From positions 1 through 34,211 of the forward strand of contig JAPLUU010000023.1 of NCBI GenBank assembly GCA_026397515.1: a DNA stretch of 34,211 nucleotides, in the 5' to 3' direction. Made by a program: the position numbers and the translations under genes. The stretch is from a candidate division SR1 bacterium. Lineage in GTDB: Bacteria; Patescibacteriota; Gracilibacteria; Absconditabacterales; Absconditicoccaceae. A model generated the notes under the pieces. It saw only the letters and a list, made by a program, of their open reading frames with translations, was not told the origin of the DNA and searched no databases. Of this stretch, positions 15,302 to 30,901 are shown piece after piece; position 1 is the stretch's first letter; each line of letters starts with the position of its first letter.

Positions 15302-15382
15302 GTATAACGTTTGCTGCTCTGTGGCCGGACCGATATCCATTAAAAATATGGTAATCGGGATGGACACTAGCAGCTGTTATGT
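15302..15382. repeat. attC-like recombination site A
   Basis: An imperfect palindrome of 81 bases. Outer arms are GTATAAC and GTTATGT, inner arms GCTGCT and AGCAGC, with a structured centre (CCGAT/ATCGG and CCAT/ATGG around TAAAAAT). It shares AACGTTTGCTGCT and AGCAGCTGTTA with site B. It is the last site of the array. Confidence 0.7.
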
Positions 15383-15459
15383 AACCCGAGATTTCGAGGG
15401 TTTGCGTACGAGTGCGGTAGTGACTTAAATTTCTATTTTGACTAAGAAAGGGGGTGTTT
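15376..15459 (-). repeat. Cassette 1 conserved trailer
   Basis: This block lies 3' of the cassette 1 gene. It closely matches 16653-16736, sharing (on the plus strand) TTTCGAGG, TTGCGTACGAG, CTATTTT, ACTAAGAAAG and a G-run. GGGGGTGTTT at 15450-15459 is exactly complementary to AAACACCCCC at 16540-16549 in the leader of the same cassette. Confidence 0.7.
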
Positions 15460-15561
15460 TTTTTGTTTTTTAAGATTCTAATAAAATATATAAGAAATAT
15501 ATCTTGTTTTTATTAATCAATATATCTTCAAAACATATATGATATCATTATTTATAGTGAA

Positions 15562-16434
15562 TTATTCACTGGTTGTCTTATATGTAAAAACATATCCAAG
15601 ATCTCCAGTATTTGTATAATAACATTTTCCGTCATTTATATTTTTTATATAAGATGATATTATCAGACTATCACAGGTTTTAATAGAATTAACATCTGTC
15701 ATCGCTTCAATGGGGAGATTTTTATCAAACACTCGATTAGATCATCTTTCAGTTTCTGTTTTAGCAATCAATGCAAATCATTCGTAAGTGTTTCAACTTT
15801 TATTTAAAGGTATATACATATATTGTCATGGTGTTCATGCAACGTTGATGAGTCAATTAAAGGATGTGTTCTGATTTGGATCTTTTGGAGGTTCTGGAAT
15901 ATCTCATGGATTTTCAAATACTCCACTATAAGCTTCTTTAAATGTATCTTTGAGGGTGGTATCAAGACTTCATCATCTCTGTGGAAAGCTTCCATGATCT
16001 ATCTGATAAGACACTAAAGCTGCAGCTACTCGTTGAAGATCAGCTTTTCTTGCTACATCATTTGCTCTTCATCTGGTTCATGACAATCTAGGGATTATGG
16101 CAGCAGAAAATATTCAAATCAAAATGATTCAAAATAAAACAACAAATACAATTATTATGATTTTAGACGCTTTCTTGTACCCGTTTTTAAAATCTTCAAA
16201 AGATTTCTTTGTTTTAGCTAGTGCTAAAGATCTTCCTTTTATTCATATGATAATGCTGATAGCTATTCAAAGTATGAAAGCCAACAAACCATTTACATAT
16301 CCTGCTCCATATGGTATAATAAAAGCAAGTATAGCAAATACATATTGTCTTGCTCGTAATAAATAGATCCATGGTAATAAAAATCCTACTCGAGAGAATC
16401 ATTTTAACCATTTTTGTTGATCTTGATTCGTCAT
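15562..16434 (-). CDS. Type IV pilin-like membrane protein (cassette 1 cargo)
   Basis: 290 residues. The N-terminal ~75 contain about three hydrophobic segments (GFLLPWIYLL, YVFAILAFIIPYG, LLAFILGIAISIIIG). A fourth segment (KIIIIVFVVLFGIILIG) runs into AAIIPRL, then NDVARKADLQRVAAALVSYQ and IDHGSFP. This last part is the pattern of type IV pilins and pseudopilins of candidate phyla (…R…RKADL…AL..Y..D.G.YP). The C-terminal half is a polar, probably extracellular domain with two cysteines. About 16 glycines are UGA, so the gene is fully adapted to code 25. It is the only gene of cassette 1. No typical prepilin cleavage site (G-F-T-L-I-E) is seen. A role in surface attachment is an inference. 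Confidence 0.75.
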
Positions 16435-16498: not shown

Positions 16499-16579
16499 GT
16501 TTCGCTTCCTTTTTCAAAGGAAGATTGCCCCATAAGGGCAAACACCCCCGAAATTTTTTAGATCCTGCACGAGTATGTT
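16499..16579 (-). promoter_or_regulatory. Cassette 1 conserved 5' leader with two hairpins
   Basis: In the gene's direction, TTGCCC/GGGCAA (16525-16541) and CTTCCTTT/AAAGGAAG (16505-16523) form two adjacent hairpins. They end 65 bases before the ATG of the pilin-like gene. Apart from small changes, the same block precedes the first gene of cassette 2 (18985-19066). It behaves like a 5' untranslated leader carried by each cassette. Function unknown. Confidence 0.6.
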
Positions 16580-16659
16580 ACATAACGTTTGCTGCTAGTC
16601 CGAAGCGCCGACTTCCATTAAATTTAAAATGGAGGCGTGTAGGATAGCAGCTGTTAGGA
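16580..16659. repeat. attC-like recombination site B
   Basis: An 80-base imperfect palindrome. Outer arms are ACATAAC and GTTAGGA, inner arms GCTGCT and AGCAGC; further in, CGCC/GGCG and TCCATT/AATGGA surround AAATTTAA. Each outer arm matches the far end of a different neighbouring cassette, not its partner across the site, as expected for a site made by cassette insertion. Confidence 0.75.
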
Positions 16660-16736
16660 GAACCGAGTTTCGAGGTCTTGCGTACGAGGGTATCATGACA
16701 CAATATTGCTATTTTAACTAAGAAAGGGGGGTATTT
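16653..16736 (-). repeat. Cassette 2 conserved trailer
   Basis: This is the counterpart of 15376-15459, 3' of the FtsZ gene. GGGGGGTATTT at 16726-16736 is exactly complementary to AAATACCCCCC at 19026-19036. Compared with cassette 1, both partners have gained one G-C pair and exchanged a G-C for an A-T pair. Confidence 0.7.
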
Positions 16737-16795
16737 TTAAATATTGTGTTTATATATTTTGGTAATTAACACTGTTATATGATTTTAAAAATAAA

Positions 16796-17749
16796 TTATT
16801 CTGCTTCTAATCAGGTTGCAATAATAATCACTTTAACTTCGTCTTTCATATTTTCATACCATGGCATTCACCATAAAAAATTTGTATTAGGGTCTATTAT
16901 TTCTTCTAAAATTGTAGCTGCTTCTCTTGCTTCTTCTATGGTAGTATCATCTCATCAAGTGACACTAAGTATAATATTCTTTACTTTACTTAAATTACTA
17001 TATAATCCAAAATTTTCTATAGCATTCCTAGTGGCATTTATTGTTTTATTGTCTCATGTACCATAGCCTATTCATATCGATCGACTACCGGAATCTATCA
17101 TTATATTTTTCACATCCGCAAAATCGATATCGATATTGCCTGGATTGATAATTAAGTCAGAAATTCCTTGTACTGATAAAAACAAAATATTATCTATTAT
17201 AGCGAATGCTTGTTTGAAGGTAGTTTTTTTGTCTATTACCTTGAAGATTTTATCATTTGGAATCACAATAAAGGCGTCTACTGCTTCTTTGATTTTTTTA
17301 AGTCCTTCTTCTACATTAAATCTCCTTCATGGTCTATCATGCAATTCAAAAGAAAAAGGGGTTGTTACGATAGCAATAGTTAATATTCACATTTTCTTTG
17401 CTATATTTGCTATCACTGGAGTTGCTCCACTTCCTGTTCATCAGGACATACCACAAGTAACGAAGACCATGTTGGTATCTTGAAGCATTTCTTTGATTTC
17501 ATGTTCACTTTCTTCAGCAGCTTTTCTTCCTATCTCAATATTTCCTCCTGCTCACAAACCTTTGGTGAGATTATGTCATATATTTATTTTCTTATTAGCT
17601 AAGCTTTCAGCAAGACTGCTAGCATCAGTATTGATTGCTACAAAATCTACTCCCTCTAATCATTCAGCAATCATCCTGTCAAGGATTTTACATCAAGCTG
17701 TTCAGATTCATAAAATCTTTATTTTGACACCTGGGATGAATTCTTCCAT
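16796..17749 (-). CDS. ftsZ: Divergent FtsZ without C-terminal tail (cassette 2 cargo)
   Basis: FtsZ is the tubulin-like GTPase of the division ring. The 317-residue protein begins [16 protein letters not shown] and contains GLGAGGN, the tubulin signature SGGTGSGATP (both Gly of the first pair are UGA), TTPFSFE, the T7 catalytic loop DIDFADVK and the end of the GTPase domain, VIIIATG. It stops four residues later (LEAE), so the linker and the C-terminal peptide that binds FtsA, ZipA or SepF are absent. The first nucleotide loop reads GIGTAGCK where FtsZ normally has a glycine run followed by N. About 16 glycines are UGA. It is the last gene of cassette 2. It looks like a paralogue able to bind GTP and perhaps co-polymerise, not a full divisome FtsZ; this is an inference. 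Confidence 0.9.
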
Positions 17750-17778: not shown

Positions 17779-18501
17779 TTAACAATTTATATATCTAATC
17801 GGGAATGCAGCTCATTTTGTGAAATACTTTTTAACTAATCAATTAATATATTTTGATCTAATAGTCTCATCTGCTATACGTCCATTAAATCCCCATCTAA
17901 TTTTGCCATTATGGTCAGGTATAGGATACCAATCATTTATTTTATAGACCTCCCTAACGATGCCCTTATAATGAACAAGTCCATATTTAGCGTTCTCTCT
18001 ATTTTTGCCCAATGGTCGACTTTTTCTTGTCGCTTCATAGAGTTCTTCTTCTGTCATATTTCTTTTGAAAAGTTTGTTAATATTAATCAGTATGACGGGG
18101 TCTGTAATTTCTATCTCTTTTCATCAATAAAATTGTTTAATTTCATTAATACTCATAATTCATCTTTTATAACTATGAAAACCACTAATTTTATTAGTTA
18201 TATCAGATTTTAAAATTTGTTTTCACTGAAATATATCAATAAGTGTGGCTTCTATTTCATGGGCAGTATCTTCAGATAATCAATGTCTAATTATATAATA
18301 TTCAATCTTTTTTCATTTATATAAAATATCTCTTATTCTATCTAATTTGTCACTATCATCATCAGAATTTATTGCCGCAATTGCATGTTGAAAAACCCTA
18401 TTACCGAGCCCCTTTCCTATATAAAAAATTTCATTATTAATGGGATCTTTTAGCATATACACATAATACTGGATATTTTGTATTGTAAGATCGTCAAACA
18501 T
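17779..18501 (-). CDS. GIY-YIG protein of the LEM-3-like type (cassette 2 cargo)
   Basis: The 240-residue protein starts MFDDLTIQNIQYYVYMLKDP, continues NNEIFYIGKGLGNRVFQHA (the GIY-YIG core with Y-V-Y and Y-I-G and the following Arg), and has an acidic helix HEIEATLID that supplies the usual glutamate. The C-terminal half (GLVHYKGIVREVY, DWYPIP, IRWGFNGRIADE, KYFTKGAAFPIRYINC) matches a domain often attached to LEM-3-like GIY-YIG proteins of bacteria. GIY-YIG domains cut DNA; the role of this branch is not well known. It lies 29 bases before the FtsZ gene and 39 bases after the lipoprotein gene. Several UGA-Gly codons are needed to read it, including two in the pair YGGK. Confidence 0.88.
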
Positions 18502-18984: not shown

Positions 18985-19066
18985 CTTTCGCTTCCTTTTT
19001 CAAAGGAAGATTGCCCCATAAGGGCAAATACCCCCCGAAATTCTTTAGATAACACCCGAGTATGTC
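18985..19066 (-). promoter_or_regulatory. Cassette 2 conserved 5' leader with two hairpins
   Basis: Hairpins CTTCCTTT/AAAGGAAG (18991-19009) and TTGCCC/GGGCAA (19011-19027) are in the same order and spacing as in cassette 1. A G-run (minus strand) next to the second hairpin pairs with the trailer. It lies just before the lipoprotein gene. Confidence 0.6.
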
Positions 19067-19213: not shown

Positions 19214-20026
19214 ATGCAAGATTACCTCCTTCAACTCAGTAAAGAGCTTCAACAAAGAAACTACAGTCCAAGGACCGTAGAGATCTATACCAATTGCTTT
19301 TCGTATTTCTTGAAATGGCTCAATGACGATGTTTCCAAGATTTCTCGTGAAAAAATCGTTGATTTTGTTCTTTATCTTCAAAAGCAAAACAGGGCGCCAA
19401 AAAGTATTAATCTCTATAAAGACGTCATAAAATTCTTCTGCAGTCAGATATTGAAAACTTCTTTTGCTGTCGATATTAAATTATCAAAGGAGCCGAAAAA
19501 ATTACCTATAGTGCTTTCAAGGATGGAACTAGATCTTATGTTTACTGTTCCTCAGAATATCAAACACAAATTATTACTTATGGTAGCCTATGGTGCGGGC
19601 ATGAGGATATCTGAGGTGAAAAATCTGCGTATGCAAGATATTGATTTCTGATCATTGACTATCCATATCAAATGAGCCAAAGGACAGAAAGATAGGATAA
19701 GTATCTTGTCTGAAAAAATCCGTGATGAATTACAAATATATTGTTCGTTGAAAAAATCAGATGAATATGTTTTCGAAAGTGAGAGAGGAGGAATATTACA
19801 TGAGAGGACATTATCTCATATTTTCCAGCATGCTAAAGAAAAAGCTTGCATCACTAAACCAGCTACTTTTCATTCGCTTCGTCACTCGTTTGCAACGCAT
19901 TTGTTAGAGAATTGAACCGATATTCGTTATGTACAAGTGTTGTTAGGACATAATAATATTCGTACGACTCAGATGTATACTCAAGTTATGAATCCCAGTC
20001 TCAAAAATATTGTGAGTCCATTATAA
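19214..20026 (+). CDS. Tyrosine recombinase, integron-integrase-like in position, XerC/D-like in length
   Basis: The 270-residue protein has an N-terminal SAM-like DNA-binding domain (NYSPRTVEIYTNCFSYFLKW) and a catalytic domain with R131 (GMRISEV), K159 in the beta-hairpin (KGQKDR), H220-x-x-R223 (HSLRHSF), H246 (LLGHNN) and nucleophile Y255 (QMYTQV). It ends in SPL, as integron integrases do. The stretch between the beta-hairpin and HSLRH is only about 60 residues, so the extra helix region that marks IntI is missing. Gly in DFGSL, IKGAK and ENGTD is UGA. Its start faces site C and it reads away from the cassettes, as intI does. A role in cassette movement is inferred from position. It ends directly against the convergent PLD gene. 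Confidence 0.88.
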
Positions 20027-22651: not shown

Positions 22652-25600
22652 TTATTTCTTTGTTACTATGGTATCGATGATATAGTCGTTTGTTCTTTTC
22701 ATCATGAGGAGAATATATCATCTGAGTTCTTTCATGGTTGGTTTATTGATATCAGTCATAATACGTATTTTTTCTAGTATTTCTAAGTGTTTTTTATATC
22801 GGTTGATGCTATCAGATGTATTATATTTATTTTTGAATATCAACCTTGAAAGCACTGTACCAAATTCCGCTCTACTTACTAAACCATTTGAATCAAATTT
22901 TTTCTTTGTTGTCGCTCCATTTGATTCTCGTCCCATAAGCCCAAGCTGGCACGCTGTCTTCATATAAAATTTCATCTCTGCATTCTCATTTTTGGTATCA
23001 GTAAACGAACAAAGTATTTTTGTGTTTGGTTGTTTACCAATGATTTTTACCGTAAATTCTGTCATCATTTTTGCTAATTGTTTTCTTGTCACTTTACCAT
23101 CTAGGTTAGCATCACAAATAGGTGAAATGGTTGTTATCCCAATATCATATCCTCGATCGTATGCGTTACTAAGTTCACTTTTTGTATATCTACATATTGC
23201 GCTGTTATGGCCTATGATTCCACATTGATTATCATAATAACTTGGTGATGTATCTCCATTTGGACAGATATCTTTTGTCAGTCGGATTCATCATCCATTA
23301 GTACTTGGTTGTCCTACATGACCATTACATGTTATGTTGCTATGTCCTGGTAAACCGTTATTCACTCCATCATCATATAGTTCATCTCACTCTACTATTC
23401 CATTTCCACAGATAGCATGTTGTATGATGAAGGTTATTCATGTAGTATTCCCTGCAATATCTGTTGCACGTACTGTGTATGTTCCATTACTAGTAATCGT
23501 TGTTCCATTGGTATATGGACTACTATTTAGTGTTGCAGTAGCTCATGTGTTATTGTCACTAAAATATAGTGTAATTCATGTAGCATATGTTATTCCACTT
23601 GTTGCTCATGAAAACGTTGGCGGAATTTTATCTATCCATGTAACGGTTGCTGTTGCGTTTCATGTGTTTCCCATGAGATCCGAAAATGTGAATGTGAATG
23701 TTTCATTTCCTGTGAAGGTATGTCAGGTAAAATTTATTCCTGTGAGTGGTTCAGAAAATCCTGTCAATGTAGCTAATACGTTTCCACTTGTTCGTGTTCA
23801 TGATGTTGGAGTATAGAGTACTGTCGCTGTAGGATCATTATCGATTTGACATAAAATATTACATCCATCACTGTTGTCCGTATTACCATCATCACATTGT
23901 TCACTACCATTTATTATTTCATCGCCACAATATTGGATGGTGATCGATCATGTACATTGGTTAGTGATAGTAGGATTTCAAGGATGGATAATATCCATAG
24001 CTATTTGGTATGTTCCTCAAGAATAATAGGTATGTCCAGTAATGTATCATCAAGAGTTATAGATGTCATATCTAGAATTAGGTAATCAGAAATTGATACC
24101 GGAGAAGATCGTTCGTGTATGATTTGTTATTCATGTAATGATTGCAATAGTTCATGAATAGATAGAAATTGGAGCAGAGAGTCAGCAAGAAATATGTTCC
24201 CATGTACAGCTGGTACTGTTACAACCCAATTCTCCATCACATTGTTCTGTACCGTTGGTGATATTGTCACCACAATATTCACCTGTGAGCGTAATAGATT
24301 TACATATGGTAGAACAATATGAACAAGTTGAACCATACGTGGGAGAACAGGTAACACCATTAATAATTCCATTATCACATTCTTCATCGTTTCAAGATCG
24401 GTTTGGTGTCTCTATGATTTCATCACCACAATATAGAGCTATGGTATCAATATTTTCTCGTCAGATGGTAATGTTTATTGTATTGTTTTCATTGTCTTTG
24501 ACTTGTATTGTACACGTATCGCTTCCTGTTTCATTTGAATTAGGACTATACATAATTCCTGTCATTCCTACTTGTGTACATGTTCATTTTGTTCCCGGAT
24601 TGATAATACTATCAAAGATTATATCGCTGTTTCCGCAATCTCACTCTTGTGCATTTGATGTTGTTACCCAATTTATTATCGGTGTAGTGTGTCATACATT
24701 TGTACTACCTGTAAAATCATTTGCAGTAGGTGGTACATCATTGAAACTATATACAGCATATGTTGCTCATCATGTTGTATTCAAAAGCATGTCTCTTACA
24801 TATCAGTTTTTTGAAACTGGTGTACTTGGTTGCATATTGGCTATACTACCTGTTATCAATATATTTGTATCGGTTCACCAATTGATTCCATCAAAACTAT
24901 ATGCACTTGTATGTAATCCTACTCATGTATCGATTGCATTCGTTATATTCAATATTCATGTCATACACTCATATCCAGAATTATTGGCAAAAACAAATGT
25001 CGGAGGAGTTGTATCTAACATACTAATAGTTTCAAAGTGCGTAGCAAAATCTACTCAAGAATATATTTGAGTTATTATACGTTTAGTTCCATCACTTGTG
25101 GTCATATATATTCCTGTACTTGTATTAATTCATTGTCCTATCTTATATGAAACAATATCTCCAAACAATGAATAATTATTTATAAAACTATTATTTGCAA
25201 TACCGGTTACGGTGAATCATGTTGTGTTTATGTTTGTAGAAATTCCTGATAGAGATCATGTGTATTTCGTTGTGTTTGATCAAATATATCTTGTTGGGTC
25301 AAAAGTTCATGAAAAAATTAAATCTGTTCATGAATACATGACTGGTTGTATTTGGAGTAATGTTCCACTACCATACGAATATCATTGCGTAATGGTATCT
25401 CCATATCCTCCTTTATAGTTCCATAAATTAGATCGTGTGTATGATCGAGCAAGAAGATAATTTCATGAAGTATTTATTGGGTTTGTGAGACGATCTCGAG
25501 ATATATTACCTGAAAATATAGCATATCCATCTGTTCGTCCTACTCATATAACAGACGTGTCGGTAGCATATCATGTTGTAATGTTAGCTACATTCCCGAC

Positions 25601-28600
25601 CATAGGATTTAATAAATCATTATTACCATAAAATATAACTGCTCATGAAGCAAATATATTTATAGAGCGTTTGTTATTATACATTTTTACGTTGTTGAGT
25701 GTGGTTCCTGTTCCATTGGTTTCTAATCCGTATTCATTGTTATATAATTGCGTGTTGTTTATTACGGTATAATTTGCTGATCACAGAGCTATTCCGTCTA
25801 AATTGTTATATAATTGAGAGTTGTTGATGATATTATAGTCTGCTCATCGTTCTAAGATACTTCCATATAATTCATTGTTATATATCTGGCAATTATTGAT
25901 TATGTTTCTATGTGAATTAGACTGTATAAAAATTCAATAATAGTTGTTGTATATTTTGGTATTGATAATTTGATTATGTAGAGCGTATCATAGAACTATT
26001 CCATATGTTCCATTGTTATATGTTTGACTGTTATATATGTTGGTTCTTTCTGTACTAGATAATGAGATTCAATATCTGTTGTAATATGCTTTACTATTGT
26101 TGACCGTATTGTTTGTTGCTCATAAGAAGGCAATACCATTATCATTTCCTGTATGTGTACCTCCGTATCCATCATCTTTTCCATTGGTAGCAATGTTATC
26201 AATGATGGTAAATTGTTTACTTTGGTTTTTTAGCATTATATTATTAAAAATTCGTCATGTAATGAAAAATGTTGTTCATCCTGTAGTGTTACTGATAATA
26301 GCATTACAATTGTTTAGATTTATTGTTCCGGTAATGATACTATTTTGTCATGTAAGTATATAGATGGTATTTACGGTAAGATTGTTTTGTAAATTGTTTG
26401 TTTTTAAAACAGTCATACTTGGTAAACATGATCATGAAACATATCCACTTCGAAGATTTGTATATGCGGTATTTGTGTCTCCTGTAGTACCATATAATGC
26501 TTCTATGATACATCTGTTTATGGGATTAGTATCCCAAAATCCTCATGTGATAAAATTATCATTGTTTCGGTGGTTGGTACATATGATTGTATCTATCGTA
26601 AAATTTCGTGTATTGCTCCATTGTCCAGTATTACCAATATTGTCTATAGCATAGACTCTTCGTTCGTACATATCATATACTTCATCCGCAGGTAATGATA
26701 TTATTGTTCCAGTAGATACTGTAAATCAACTGAGTATACTTCAACCGCTACCTATTACTTCAAAAACATATCAACTGGTTCATACTCACGTATCTATTGC
26801 CGAACTTCGGACAAGTGTTATATATCCTGTATTTAAAACTGATCATGAATTAGGAGAAATGAGTTGTACTTGAGAAGGATGAGTCTGGTCCAAAATGCTA
26901 CTATTTTCAAAGTGTGTAGCAAAATCGTTTCCTGAATATATTTGCATGATAACACGTTTAGTTCCATCACCTGTACTAAAATATATTCATGTACTTGTGT
27001 TAATTCATTGTCCTATTTTATATGATACAATATTCCCAAATAGTGAATAATTATTTATGAAACTATTATTTGCAATACCTGTTACCGTGAATCATGTGGT
27101 GTTTGTAGTTGTAGAAATTCCCAATAATGATCAGGTGTATTTCGTTGTGTTTGATCAGATATATTTTGTTGCATCAAAAGATCCTGAAGCAATCAGATCT
27201 GTTCATGAATAGATGACTGGTTGTTTTTGTAATACTATTCCACTACCGTATGAATATGCTGCCGTAGATCATATATATGATAGATTTCATCTTAGACTTG
27301 CAAAAGTTCCTGTCCATGGAAGCATATACTCGCCGATAGTGTTGATTGGATTGGTGAGATAATCTCGAGATATGGTTCATCATGTATCCAATGTCCCTCA
27401 TGAAAATATACTAGAAAAATCTGATCATAATCAAGCTATAAAACCACCACCTACATAGGTATCTGAAATATCTATAGTATTGCCAAATATTTTGAGTGAG
27501 CCGTAATATTTATTGTTGGATGAAGTTGTGTCATTATGAATACCTGCTATATTGTTGCCATATACTTTTATGTTGTTTATAATATTGTTATTTGATGAAA
27601 CGGTAAGATCCATACCATATTGTCCATTGTTGTATGTTTGAATATTGTTGAATATCGTATTGTTTCCTCATTCGGTGCTAATTCCGCCATAATAATTGTT
27701 GTATGTATTAACATTATTTACTGTATTATGACTTCCTTGGTAGATTACAATTCATGCACCATTATTGTTATATGCTTCTGTGTTGTTGATTGTGTTACCA
27801 TAGGTTGCGGCGTTTATCAATAATCCATTATGATTATTATATACTTTCATATTGTTTAGAGAATTATATGCACTTGCATATACCTCTACACCATTATAGT
27901 TGACATATACCTCTGAATTGTTGATAGTGTTGTAGTTACTTCCATTCTGCAAGTATATTCCAATTCAGACATTATTATTTGCTTTTATATTTTCCAGTGT
28001 ATTGTACCATGATTGATTTATATTTATACCACAAGCTTCTCGTCCTACATGATTATATACATGAATATTGTGGAGTGTATTATAATGACTAAGAGAGAAA
28101 CTTATTCATACTCTATCTGCTCATCTTCCATTGATAGAGATTCCGTCAATTATTATATTGTTTTTGCTACTAGCGTATAGAGTTCCCGTAATAGTTAAGG
28201 GCGTATTGCTGCTTATAGAGATATCTCCACTTCCTACTATAGCTGAACAACCTGTAAGATTTATACTTCTAGAGGTTATATGAGCTCATGAAAATAACAC
28301 ATAGATTGTATTTCCTGTAAAATATTCTGGAATCACATCAGTTCCTGGGGTAATGTAACTTACGGACATATTACTTGGATTACAAGTATTACTTGTTCGT
28401 GCATTAGTATATGCTGTCATATCAGATCATCCACTACCATAGAGTGCACAGATAATATTATTGTCACTAGGGCTATTGTTCCAGAATCCTGTAGTCAAAA
28501 AATTATCATTATTCCATCACGACATACATGGAGATGGCATACTTATTATAAAGTTCCACGTGGTACTTCGTGTTCATGTATTCCCAATATTATCTATTGC

Positions 28601-30901
28601 ATAGACACGCCACTGATAACTTCCATTTGCTAATCATACAATGTTTTGTCCTGTCGTAGATATGAATCCACTTTGAATTATAATTCCTCCACTCATAATA
28701 TAAAAAACATATCAACTGATTCCTCATCACGTATCTATTGCCGAACTTCGGACAAGAGCTATATTTCACGTATTCAATATAGTTCATGAACTAGGAGAAA
28801 TGAGTTGAACTTGAGATGGTGTAGTAGTATCTACGAAACTTACTTGTTCGAAATGCGTAGCAAAATAAGTAGATCAAAACAATTGCGTAATGATTCTTTT
28901 TTGTCCATCACCTGCAATAAGCATTATTCCTGTAGCTGTTCAAGGCACTAGATTATTTCTGAAACTTGTAATATCTCCAATGAGCGAATAGTTATTTATA
29001 TATCCATTATTAGAATTTCCTATGACGGTAAAATTGAGTCCAGTCGTCATAGGAGGAAGTCCAAGGAGTTCACCTGTTACTTTGATAGTGTCAGATCAAA
29101 TATATTTAGTGATATCAAAGTTTCATGAATTTATAAGTGTTATTCCTGAATATATTACTGGTTGTATTTGAAGTAATGTTCCACTACCATTGGAGTAACC
29201 TGAAGTATATGTCGTATATAATTTTATTCATCTAAGACTTGCGAAACTTCCTGTCCATGAAAGAAAATAGTTCCCATTATTATCTATAGGATTGGTTATA
29301 TAATCCCACGACATTGTGTGTGTTTGGATGATGACACCATTACTTCGTCCGATCAATCAATTGTTTCCTGTCATAAAATTAGCTATGGTTCATCATATAT
29401 TAGTAGTTGAATTACTAAATATATTATTTGTACCATAGTACTTTGTATTTAGAGATGTTGCATATAGATATATTCCATAAGTTCCATTGTTATAACTTCA
29501 AATATTATTTACTGATCCCGATACTGATGAGGCAAAATATATTCCATATCAATTATTATTATAACTTTCTGTATTATTGATAACTCCAAATGATGATGAT
29601 GAGAGGGTAATCCCATTGCTAGTATTATTATAAAATTGAGAATTATTTACTACTCCAGACGCTGATGAAGCAAAATATATTCAAACACTAGTATTGTTAT
29701 AACTCTGAGAATTGTTTATCAATATATTCGATGAAGCGCTAATGTGTATTCCATTATTTCCATTATTATAACTCTTAGAATTATTTATTATACCATATGG
29801 AGATGAAGTAAAATATATCCCATAACTAGTATTATTATAACTTTGGGAATTGTTTATTGTATCATATGACGAATTATTTCCAAAATAAATACCGGCGTTG
29901 GTGTTGTTGTGAGATCTTACACTATCTAATGTATTATATGATGAATTAGCATCTACATATATTCCGTATGTATTGTTGTGTGTGTCGATATTTCTGACAA
30001 TGTTGTTTGTAGAACTTACCGCCACCATGATACCATAATAATCATTATATATATTGCAATTTTCAATGATATTATTTACCCCATGATCATAGATTATTAT
30101 TCATCTTTGCCCTGCATTATATACTGTGCAATTACTTATAATATTGTTATATCCCCAGTCTCTTACAAATACAGCATAATTTCTAATATCATGTACTACT
30201 GTATTATTGAATATGTTATGATGTGAAACATTAGCAATCCTAATTCCGTATCATATGTCATTACCTACATTTACATTATTAACAGTGGAATTATTTGTCC
30301 AATCCGTTTCTATCCCAAACGAAAGTGATGTTCCATTACCATCTAATGTTATATTATCTATGATAGCATTATAATTTGCTCCCATAGAAATCAGTGCGGT
30401 TGGATTATTAAACCAACCTCATCATACTGCCTTTATCACAACATTTCCACTCCCTATGATTGTAGTACAATTATTCATAGTCATTTGAGTTGGGTATGGA
30501 GGACTAAGCGTGTAGGTTCCGGAATTAAATACATAAATGGTATTTGTCATAAGTATATATCCTGAAGTGGTAAGCATAGTATGTAACCCTGTATCGTCTG
30601 TAATATTTACTACTTGCATTGTGGTAGTATCACAATAGCCCGTCAATCGTTTTGTAGTATACGCTGTCTTATTAGTTCCTCCACTTCCATCTCCATATAG
30701 CGCTTTTATGATATCTCAACTACTGGGACTATCATTCCAAAAACTTTGATTTAAAAAATTGCTATTGTCCCATTGTATATTTCCTCCATTAAGCGTCCAT
30801 GTGGCCGCATGCGTAAAAAATGTGGATATCAAAAAAAACATGCTTATCACGAATAAGATTTTGTATACATTTACTTTAAAAGATGATCATTTTTTCCCCA
30901 T
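22652..30901 (-). CDS. Giant secreted beta-helix protein with cysteine-rich repeats and C-terminal SLH-like region (probable adhesin)
   Basis: 2749 residues, one frame when UGA is Gly. A signal peptide (KILFVISMFFLISTFFTHA) ends near residue 31. A module starting with an NNDNF..GFWN.SP...I.ALYG pattern occurs three times, near residues 37, 795 and 1445. Each is followed by parallel beta-helix repeats of the NosD type (NTINNSQSYNNTSYGIYF-like, Asn-rich) and a beta-rich tail. Residues ~2150-2340 contain cysteine-rich units (CGDEIINGSEQCDDGN), as in the DUF4215/myxococcal disulfide repeat. Bacterial Ig-like segments follow, then an EF-hand-like DANLDGKV and an SLH-like region (~2590-2730) that could hold the protein to the cell surface. 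Function as adhesin is inferred from architecture. I checked start, stop and several segments for frame, not every codon. Confidence 0.86.

Follow-up and report, generated by a model that had tools for sequence, protein, structure and literature searches.

A type IV pilin body joined to a membrane module in a cassette-like setting: a putative membrane-fixed pilin of a candidate division SR1 bacterium

Background

We report a chimeric protein, P0001, from a candidate division SR1 bacterium, in which the body of a type IV pilin follows a membrane module and the motif by which prepilins are processed has been lost. We give a probability of roughly one half to the reading that the pilin body is held on the cell surface as a binding domain outside the pilus and that P0001 is not a processed pilus subunit. 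The evidence comes from homology to ordinary pilins, the predicted fold, the loss of the processing motif, purifying selection, a cassette-like setting and the repeated re-anchoring of pilin bodies in related genomes.

These bacteria live as epibionts or predators, and type IV pili are presumed to be their means of attachment to a host; for Vampirococcus, an Absconditabacterium, one report makes the same presumption (PMC8080830). A pilin that is fixed in the membrane, made repeatedly on different anchors and once within a cassette, would offer a testable route by which such a cell might vary its surface or alter the working of its pili.

The gene and its genetic code

The source genome, labelled G000 here, comprises 1.21 Mb in 23 contigs, one of which, 34,211 nucleotides long, is referred to as the window. 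Comparisons were made across 49 genomes of the family and 9 of the genus. The gene and its parts are as follows.

15562..16434, minus strand: coding sequence of P0001, 290 amino acids in code 25, with a full-length ortholog in genome G003
16162..16434, minus strand: N-terminal membrane module, residues 1-91, in which two predicted transmembrane (TM) helices are followed by a Lys/Arg-rich stretch that borders on the pilin helix
16084..16161, minus strand: membrane half of the pilin helix, residues 92-117, with G14 and P22 of pilins kept as G107 and P115
15565..16083, minus strand: residues 118-290, comprising the pilin helix in its outer half and the C-terminal beta domain; C254 and C271 are nearly invariant
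16015..16062, minus strand: helix segment NDVARKADLQRVAAAL, residues 125-140

The start is placed at the ATG at 16434 (MTNQDQQ), which is common to the G003 ortholog, and the frame is open further upstream. Sixteen TGA codons are read as glycine in this frame (code 25, that of SR1/Absconditabacteria), the first of them at codon 12; read in table 11 the gene stops there, and P0001 therefore arises only under a code in which TGA specifies a residue. In the sister genome G003 the ortholog, which shares 77% amino acid identity with P0001, is encoded next to a recombinase and at a different chromosomal position. When the two genes are aligned, TGA codons lie opposite TGA in 13 cases, opposite a GGN glycine codon in 4 and opposite other residues in 2.

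The pilin body

Residues 92-290 of P0001 are homologous to the type IV pilins that occur as separate proteins in the family. The nearest comparison is with an ordinary pilin gene of the same genome (G000:C14:53157-53765, on contig 14), which encodes KKGFTLIEMLIVIVIIGILAAALIPRL and matches the prepilin methylation motif PF07963 at 1.1e-8; its product and P0001 are 41% identical over query residues 83-287 (E 4.5e-33). The likeness to this pilin, which is of the GFTLIEM type, runs from G14/P22 outward along the helix and through the globular body, whereas the N-terminal methylation motif with its E5 is found in the ordinary pilin only and the extra membrane module in P0001 only. Matches to the full protein at E <= 0.001 were found in 41 of the 49 family genomes, nearly all over the pilin part, and a body HMM built from 36 ordinary pilins of the family gives P0001 150.6 bits. 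The first-pass annotation had drawn attention to the segment NDVARKADLQRVAAAL as a pilin-like helix, a resemblance that these values place far beyond chance; within it and its surroundings on the outer helix, N125, D126, K130, A131 and D132 are invariant in 17 sequences.

The NCBIfam model of GspG (TIGR01710) matches residues 99-189 with E 4.1e-8, its 33.3 bits lying below the curated cut-off of 88.85, and Pfam T2SSG (PF08334) matches with E 0.011, likewise below cut-off. The best sequence matches in the PDB are GspG 5wda (1.7e-4), PilA (0.0012) and geopilin (0.0029). P0001 resembles the major pseudopilin GspG in the helix and the start of the globular domain. It differs in that its scores do not reach the curated cut-offs and in that GspG undergoes processing by the prepilin peptidase.

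An AlphaFold2 model computed from 17 sequences (mean pLDDT 78.6, pTM 0.59) has one continuous helix over residues 79-147 and a C-terminal beta domain with strands between 205 and 286, the block pLDDT being 80-93 over residues 121-190 and 84-93 over 201-290. The long helix and beta domain expected of a pilin, whose absence had been named beforehand as grounds for giving up the assignment, are thus both present. With this model, Foldseek returned 41 matches from the PDB, none at E <= 0.001, the best (E 0.31) being a chain of the toxin co-regulated pilus. VIA-align, run over the 166 best chains, listed 19 entries, 18 of which are pilins or pseudopilins, some as fusions; its best entry aligns 151 residues at rmsd 5.5 with Z 6.7, and the Z values are middling. 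The consistency of this list, together with the sequence homology, makes the pilin fold of P0001 credible. A VIA-align match of residues 1-72 to a viral fusion protein, with an rmsd of 15.5, was judged to be due to chance.

The prepilin motif and the membrane module

Scanned to E 10, P0001 gives no match to PF07963, a search in which the HMMER filters drop most matches above about 0.1. With the conserved Pro22 (P115) as reference and an ungapped count towards the N-terminus, the residues at -1, +1 and +5 are I93, I94 and V98, where pilins have G, F and E. The cleavage motif is accordingly missing, as the first-pass annotation had stated, and its suggestion that P0001 might be a minor pilin finds no support in the usual sense of that term, the class III signal peptide and E5 both being absent. 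A GF pair at residues 12-13 (LKGFSRVGF) slightly resembles a cleavage site; it has no E at +5, stands ahead of the wrong helix and is passed over by PF07963.

Where three extra membrane segments had been proposed ahead of the pilin helix, we find two. Hydropathy and AlphaFold2 both place TM helices at about residues 19-39 and 44-72, and a short N-terminal helix at residues 4-17 is probably amphipathic. Confidence in this region is low, with pLDDT 56-75 over residues 1-80 and only two full-length sequences. Residues 67-92 hold eight K or R and two D or E, and from this Lys/Arg-rich end of the module the pilin helix would be expected to take its normal orientation, N-terminus in and C-terminus out.

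The module itself is rare. At E < 0.001 it was matched in the 49 family genomes only in G000, in G003 and in a zinc-ribbon membrane protein of genome G005 (L038:1452-1916), a segment of which is related to residues 3-93 of P0001 (E 2.5e-5 and 2.6e-5); the G005 protein shares this membrane segment but has a zinc ribbon in front of it and no pilin body behind. A phylum-wide search gave a match to the module in 10 of 379 genomes at E <= 0.01, namely the source genome and nine with weak matches (E 0.0014-0.0085). DUF2628 (PF10947) was considered as a name for the module and set aside, its match being too weak at 7.8 bits and E 6.2.

Selection on the chimeric gene

By Nei-Gojobori counts on the single pair of P0001 and its G003 ortholog, dN/dS is 0.05 over residues 1-91, 0.08 over 92-117, 0.39 over 118-160, 0.17 over 161-290, where dS reaches 1.08 and the values are rough, and 0.18 overall. 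Constraint is thus strongest on the membrane module and weakest on the pilin body, which evolves faster. This faster evolution, with the presumed part of type IV pili in the attachment of Vampirococcus, is what speaks for the suggestion of the first-pass annotation that the cassette may carry a variable attachment protein. With dN/dS low along the protein, P0001 does not resemble a decaying gene.

Pilin bodies on other anchors

For each of 71 family matches, from the 49 genomes, the surrounding open frame was classed by its anchor. The prepilin motif is present in 55 and absent from 16, and ten of the 71, in eight genomes, are pilin bodies on non-pilin anchors. The six motif-less matches that were not counted as chimeras comprise three cut at a contig end, the membrane module of G005 and two frames (G035:C12:18978 and G025:C17:863) with one TM helix each and no recognised motif. 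The anchors of the ten chimeras are these.

Cassette proteins: G000 and G003
DUF805 with a zinc-ribbon-like start (ribbon below the Pfam cut-off): G039, twice
DUF805: G013
Module of about two TM helices: G014
DUF5684: G031 (L120)
Large lipoprotein-like proteins that end in a pilin body: G013, G015 and G038 (L117:3458-5563, L118:862-2691, L119:1167-3311)

Applied to 652 frames, the body HMM recovers all ten chimeras (E 5.8e-59 to 2.9e-14), and the seven remaining rows outside its training set are pilins or pilin fragments. In G039 one of the two chimeras has a neighbouring paralogue that shares its zinc-ribbon-like start and DUF805 but has no pilin body. The DUF805 chimeras, two in G039 and one in G013, resemble P0001 in that a polytopic membrane module precedes a motif-less pilin body; they differ in the module itself and in the position of the body in the tree. 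The lipoprotein-like proteins of G015 and G038 carry LSGC and LTAC, which from the lipobox consensus we take to be lipobox-like, the IYGC of G013 being looser. In those of G013 and G015 the match begins at position 11 of the profile with no pilin TM helix ahead of it, an indication that the ectodomain itself has been under selection. A neighbour that the chimeras of G003 and G015 seemed to have in common was set aside, the evidence for it being weak.

A tree was built from 52 bodies, including nine chimeras, the DUF5684 chimera of G031 being left out for its weak body match; the root serves for drawing only. The cassette pair forms a clade with support 100/100 on a long branch (0.81). A single origin of the nine chimeras appears in none of 200 bootstrap trees, and the chimera label needs six changes, at least three of which are forced by the starred branches. 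The label is somewhat clustered, six changes standing against a mean of 8.5 after shuffling with only 5 of 500 shuffles as low, so that some chimeras share an origin and not every one arose independently.

A class-wide search of 242 genomes gave no evident chimera outside the family among the matches listed. Rows from other families, again among the matches listed, start no later than the seventh position of the pilin model and lie in frames of at most 270 amino acids, these frames having been read in table 11, which cuts those of TGA-reading genomes. In the open-licence literature we found no DUF805 joined to a pilin and, among the titles listed, no tethered pilins. For the Absconditabacteria as a whole, we consider it an even chance that the pilin body left the pilus several times to become a surface domain on membrane modules and lipoproteins, and that one such form is a mobile, integron-like cassette that can be expressed only under the same altered code. 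These observations suggest that pilin domains can find new use away from filaments, and that a pool of cassettes can be restricted to one lineage by an altered genetic code.

A proposed tethered pilin and its alternatives

The change of anchor on several occasions with the body kept, including forms that have no pilin TM helix, argues for a function of the ectodomain outside a filament. In our proposal P0001 descends from a type IV pilin of an SR1 ancestor, from which the leader, the glycine of the cleavage site and Glu5 were lost and which became fused to a polytopic membrane module. P0001 would then remain permanently in the cytoplasmic membrane with its N-terminus inside, two TM helices, the Lys/Arg-rich stretch on the inner face and the pilin helix leading outwards. 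The pilin body would be held at the surface, its extraction into a filament would be impossible, and most likely it would serve as a fixed binding domain, putatively for a surface, for a host cell or for the cell's own pilus. The pilin homology, predicted fold, motif loss, added membrane module and purifying selection all support a membrane-fixed pilin analogue, one of the options that the first-pass annotation had raised. Several points tell against this model: confidence in the N-terminal module is low, Foldseek taken alone gives no significant PDB hit, the VIA-align Z values are middling, and the Pfam and NCBIfam matches to GspG lie below cut-off. The strong conservation of residues on the outer helix would also suit contact with a pilus, and PilD could in principle cleave at the GF pair of residues 12-13.

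The search for pilus machinery that had been recommended as a check was successful: matches to the T2SSE ATPase lie at four places in the genome, two of them above 330 bits, a PilC-type protein (T2SSF 9.7e-45) is encoded near three PF07963 places on contig 12, and there are five PF07963 places, that is, motif-bearing prepilins, and one PilD N-domain in all. From this gene content, genuine type IV pili should be within the cell's capacity too.

The retention of this machinery, and of the helix residues, also fits a different proposal, to which we assign a lesser likelihood, in which P0001 modulates the pilus: an uncleavable pilin would dock on PilC or on the base of the filament by its conserved helix and limit, anchor or prime assembly, and, carried in a cassette, it could give protection from phages that use the pilus or keep pili attached. 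In its favour, one report describes a pilD duplication in Pseudomonas aeruginosa that delays pilin maturation and confers phage resistance, and a likely dominant negative PilB variant that is also phage-resistant (PMC13170266); in another, the pilin accessory protein TfpY is not found in pili and is proposed to prime assembly, though the same report states that it gives no phage defence (PMC11841053). Against a modulator, the lipoprotein-like bodies of G013 and G015, which have no pilin TM helix, could not act in this way, and no link to phages emerged from 50,697 phage records, where no match was found, or from 14 candidate stretches in viral contigs, none of which encodes a relative. A phage origin of the protein was rejected on the same searches.

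That P0001 is instead still a minor pilin, one that is cleaved at an atypical position such as after G12 and becomes part of the pilus, is improbable. The pilin fold, the LKGFSRVGF stretch near the N-terminus and the PilD N-domain of the genome agree with it, but a cut at residue 12 would leave two TM helices ahead of the pilin helix, S stands in place of G12 in the zinc-ribbon relative, and both a PF07963 match (to E 10) and E5 are absent. Decay of a pilin, or a functionless chance fusion, is very improbable: it would account for the degenerate motif and for a module confined to three of 49 family genomes at E < 0.001, but not for dN/dS of 0.05 in that module and 0.18 overall, for four TGA/GGN glycine switches between the orthologs or for the same kind of fusion in eight genomes.

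The cassette-like array

P0001 is encoded within an array whose elements are listed here.

15306..15378, minus strand: attC-like site closing the pilin cassette, 73 bases, AACAG-N5 ... complementary N5-CAAACGTT; single-strand fold z -4.96
16500..16542, minus strand: conserved cassette-head leader, 43 bases with two small inverted repeats; five places in four of nine genus genomes
16584..16655, minus strand: attC-like site of the neighbouring cassette, 72 bases, z -4.67; the GTT core of this site forms the 5' limit of the pilin cassette
19214..20026, plus strand: tyrosine recombinase of the array, ATG at 19214, frame open from 19145

The pilin cassette measures about 1.28 kb, and the pilin gene stands alone between the two attC-like sites of the window. 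Run over the window and the compared loci, the attC-like pattern occurs at two places in the window and in G003, G004 and G010; it was drawn from the two window sites and those of G003 and G004, the G010 site being found by it, and the counts carry no chance rate. Folded as single-stranded DNA, the five sites give z of -5.0, -4.7, -5.9, -2.5 and -6.0, with 3 of 200 shuffles as good for the G004 site and none for the other four. At the G003 locus the gene lies directly beside a recombinase similar in sequence, among other flanking genes and with a second small gene before the attC-like site, and the similarity of the two loci begins at the GTT core of the attC-like site. The earlier description of the gene as cassette cargo is supported by the flanking sites and by an ortholog that lies elsewhere beside a recombinase.

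The likeness to an integron gene cassette lies in the lone gene flanked by attC-like sites, in the array with its adjacent tyrosine recombinase and in the ortholog found elsewhere next to a recombinase in a sister genome; the difference lies in the window recombinase, which falls below cut-off for both the XerA_Arch and the integron integrase models. It scores 191.7 of 265 bits against TIGR02249, in two stretches, and matches the IntI4 structure 2a3v in two stretches also; the IntI-specific insert may be missing. Since the enzyme is below both cut-offs, 'integron' names only the arrangement here. In the open-licence literature, covered mostly at title level, we found no description of cassettes in Absconditabacteria, Gracilibacteria, Patescibacteria or the candidate phyla radiation.

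The 43-base leader is identical at 16500-16542 and 18986-19028 (minus strand), both cassette heads, and occurs also in G003, G004 and G010. Cassette tails read ACACCCCC or similar and heads GGGGGTGT (15450-15462, 16728-16738, 16542-16559), and these sequences would allow base pairing between a cassette's tail and the head of the cassette that follows.

The neighbouring cassette encodes FtsZ (16796-17749, minus strand; TIGR00065 337.7 bits, above cut-off), which ends right after the FtsZ C domain, and also a GIY-YIG (LEM-3-like) protein at 17779-18501 on the same strand. A second FtsZ of the genome lies on contig 20 (FtsZ_C 97.7 against 49.6 bits), and the presence of an extra copy of a filament-forming cell protein within the same array is striking. 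Further along the window, 22652-30901 on the minus strand encodes a repeat-rich protein of 2749 amino acids, perhaps a giant surface protein.
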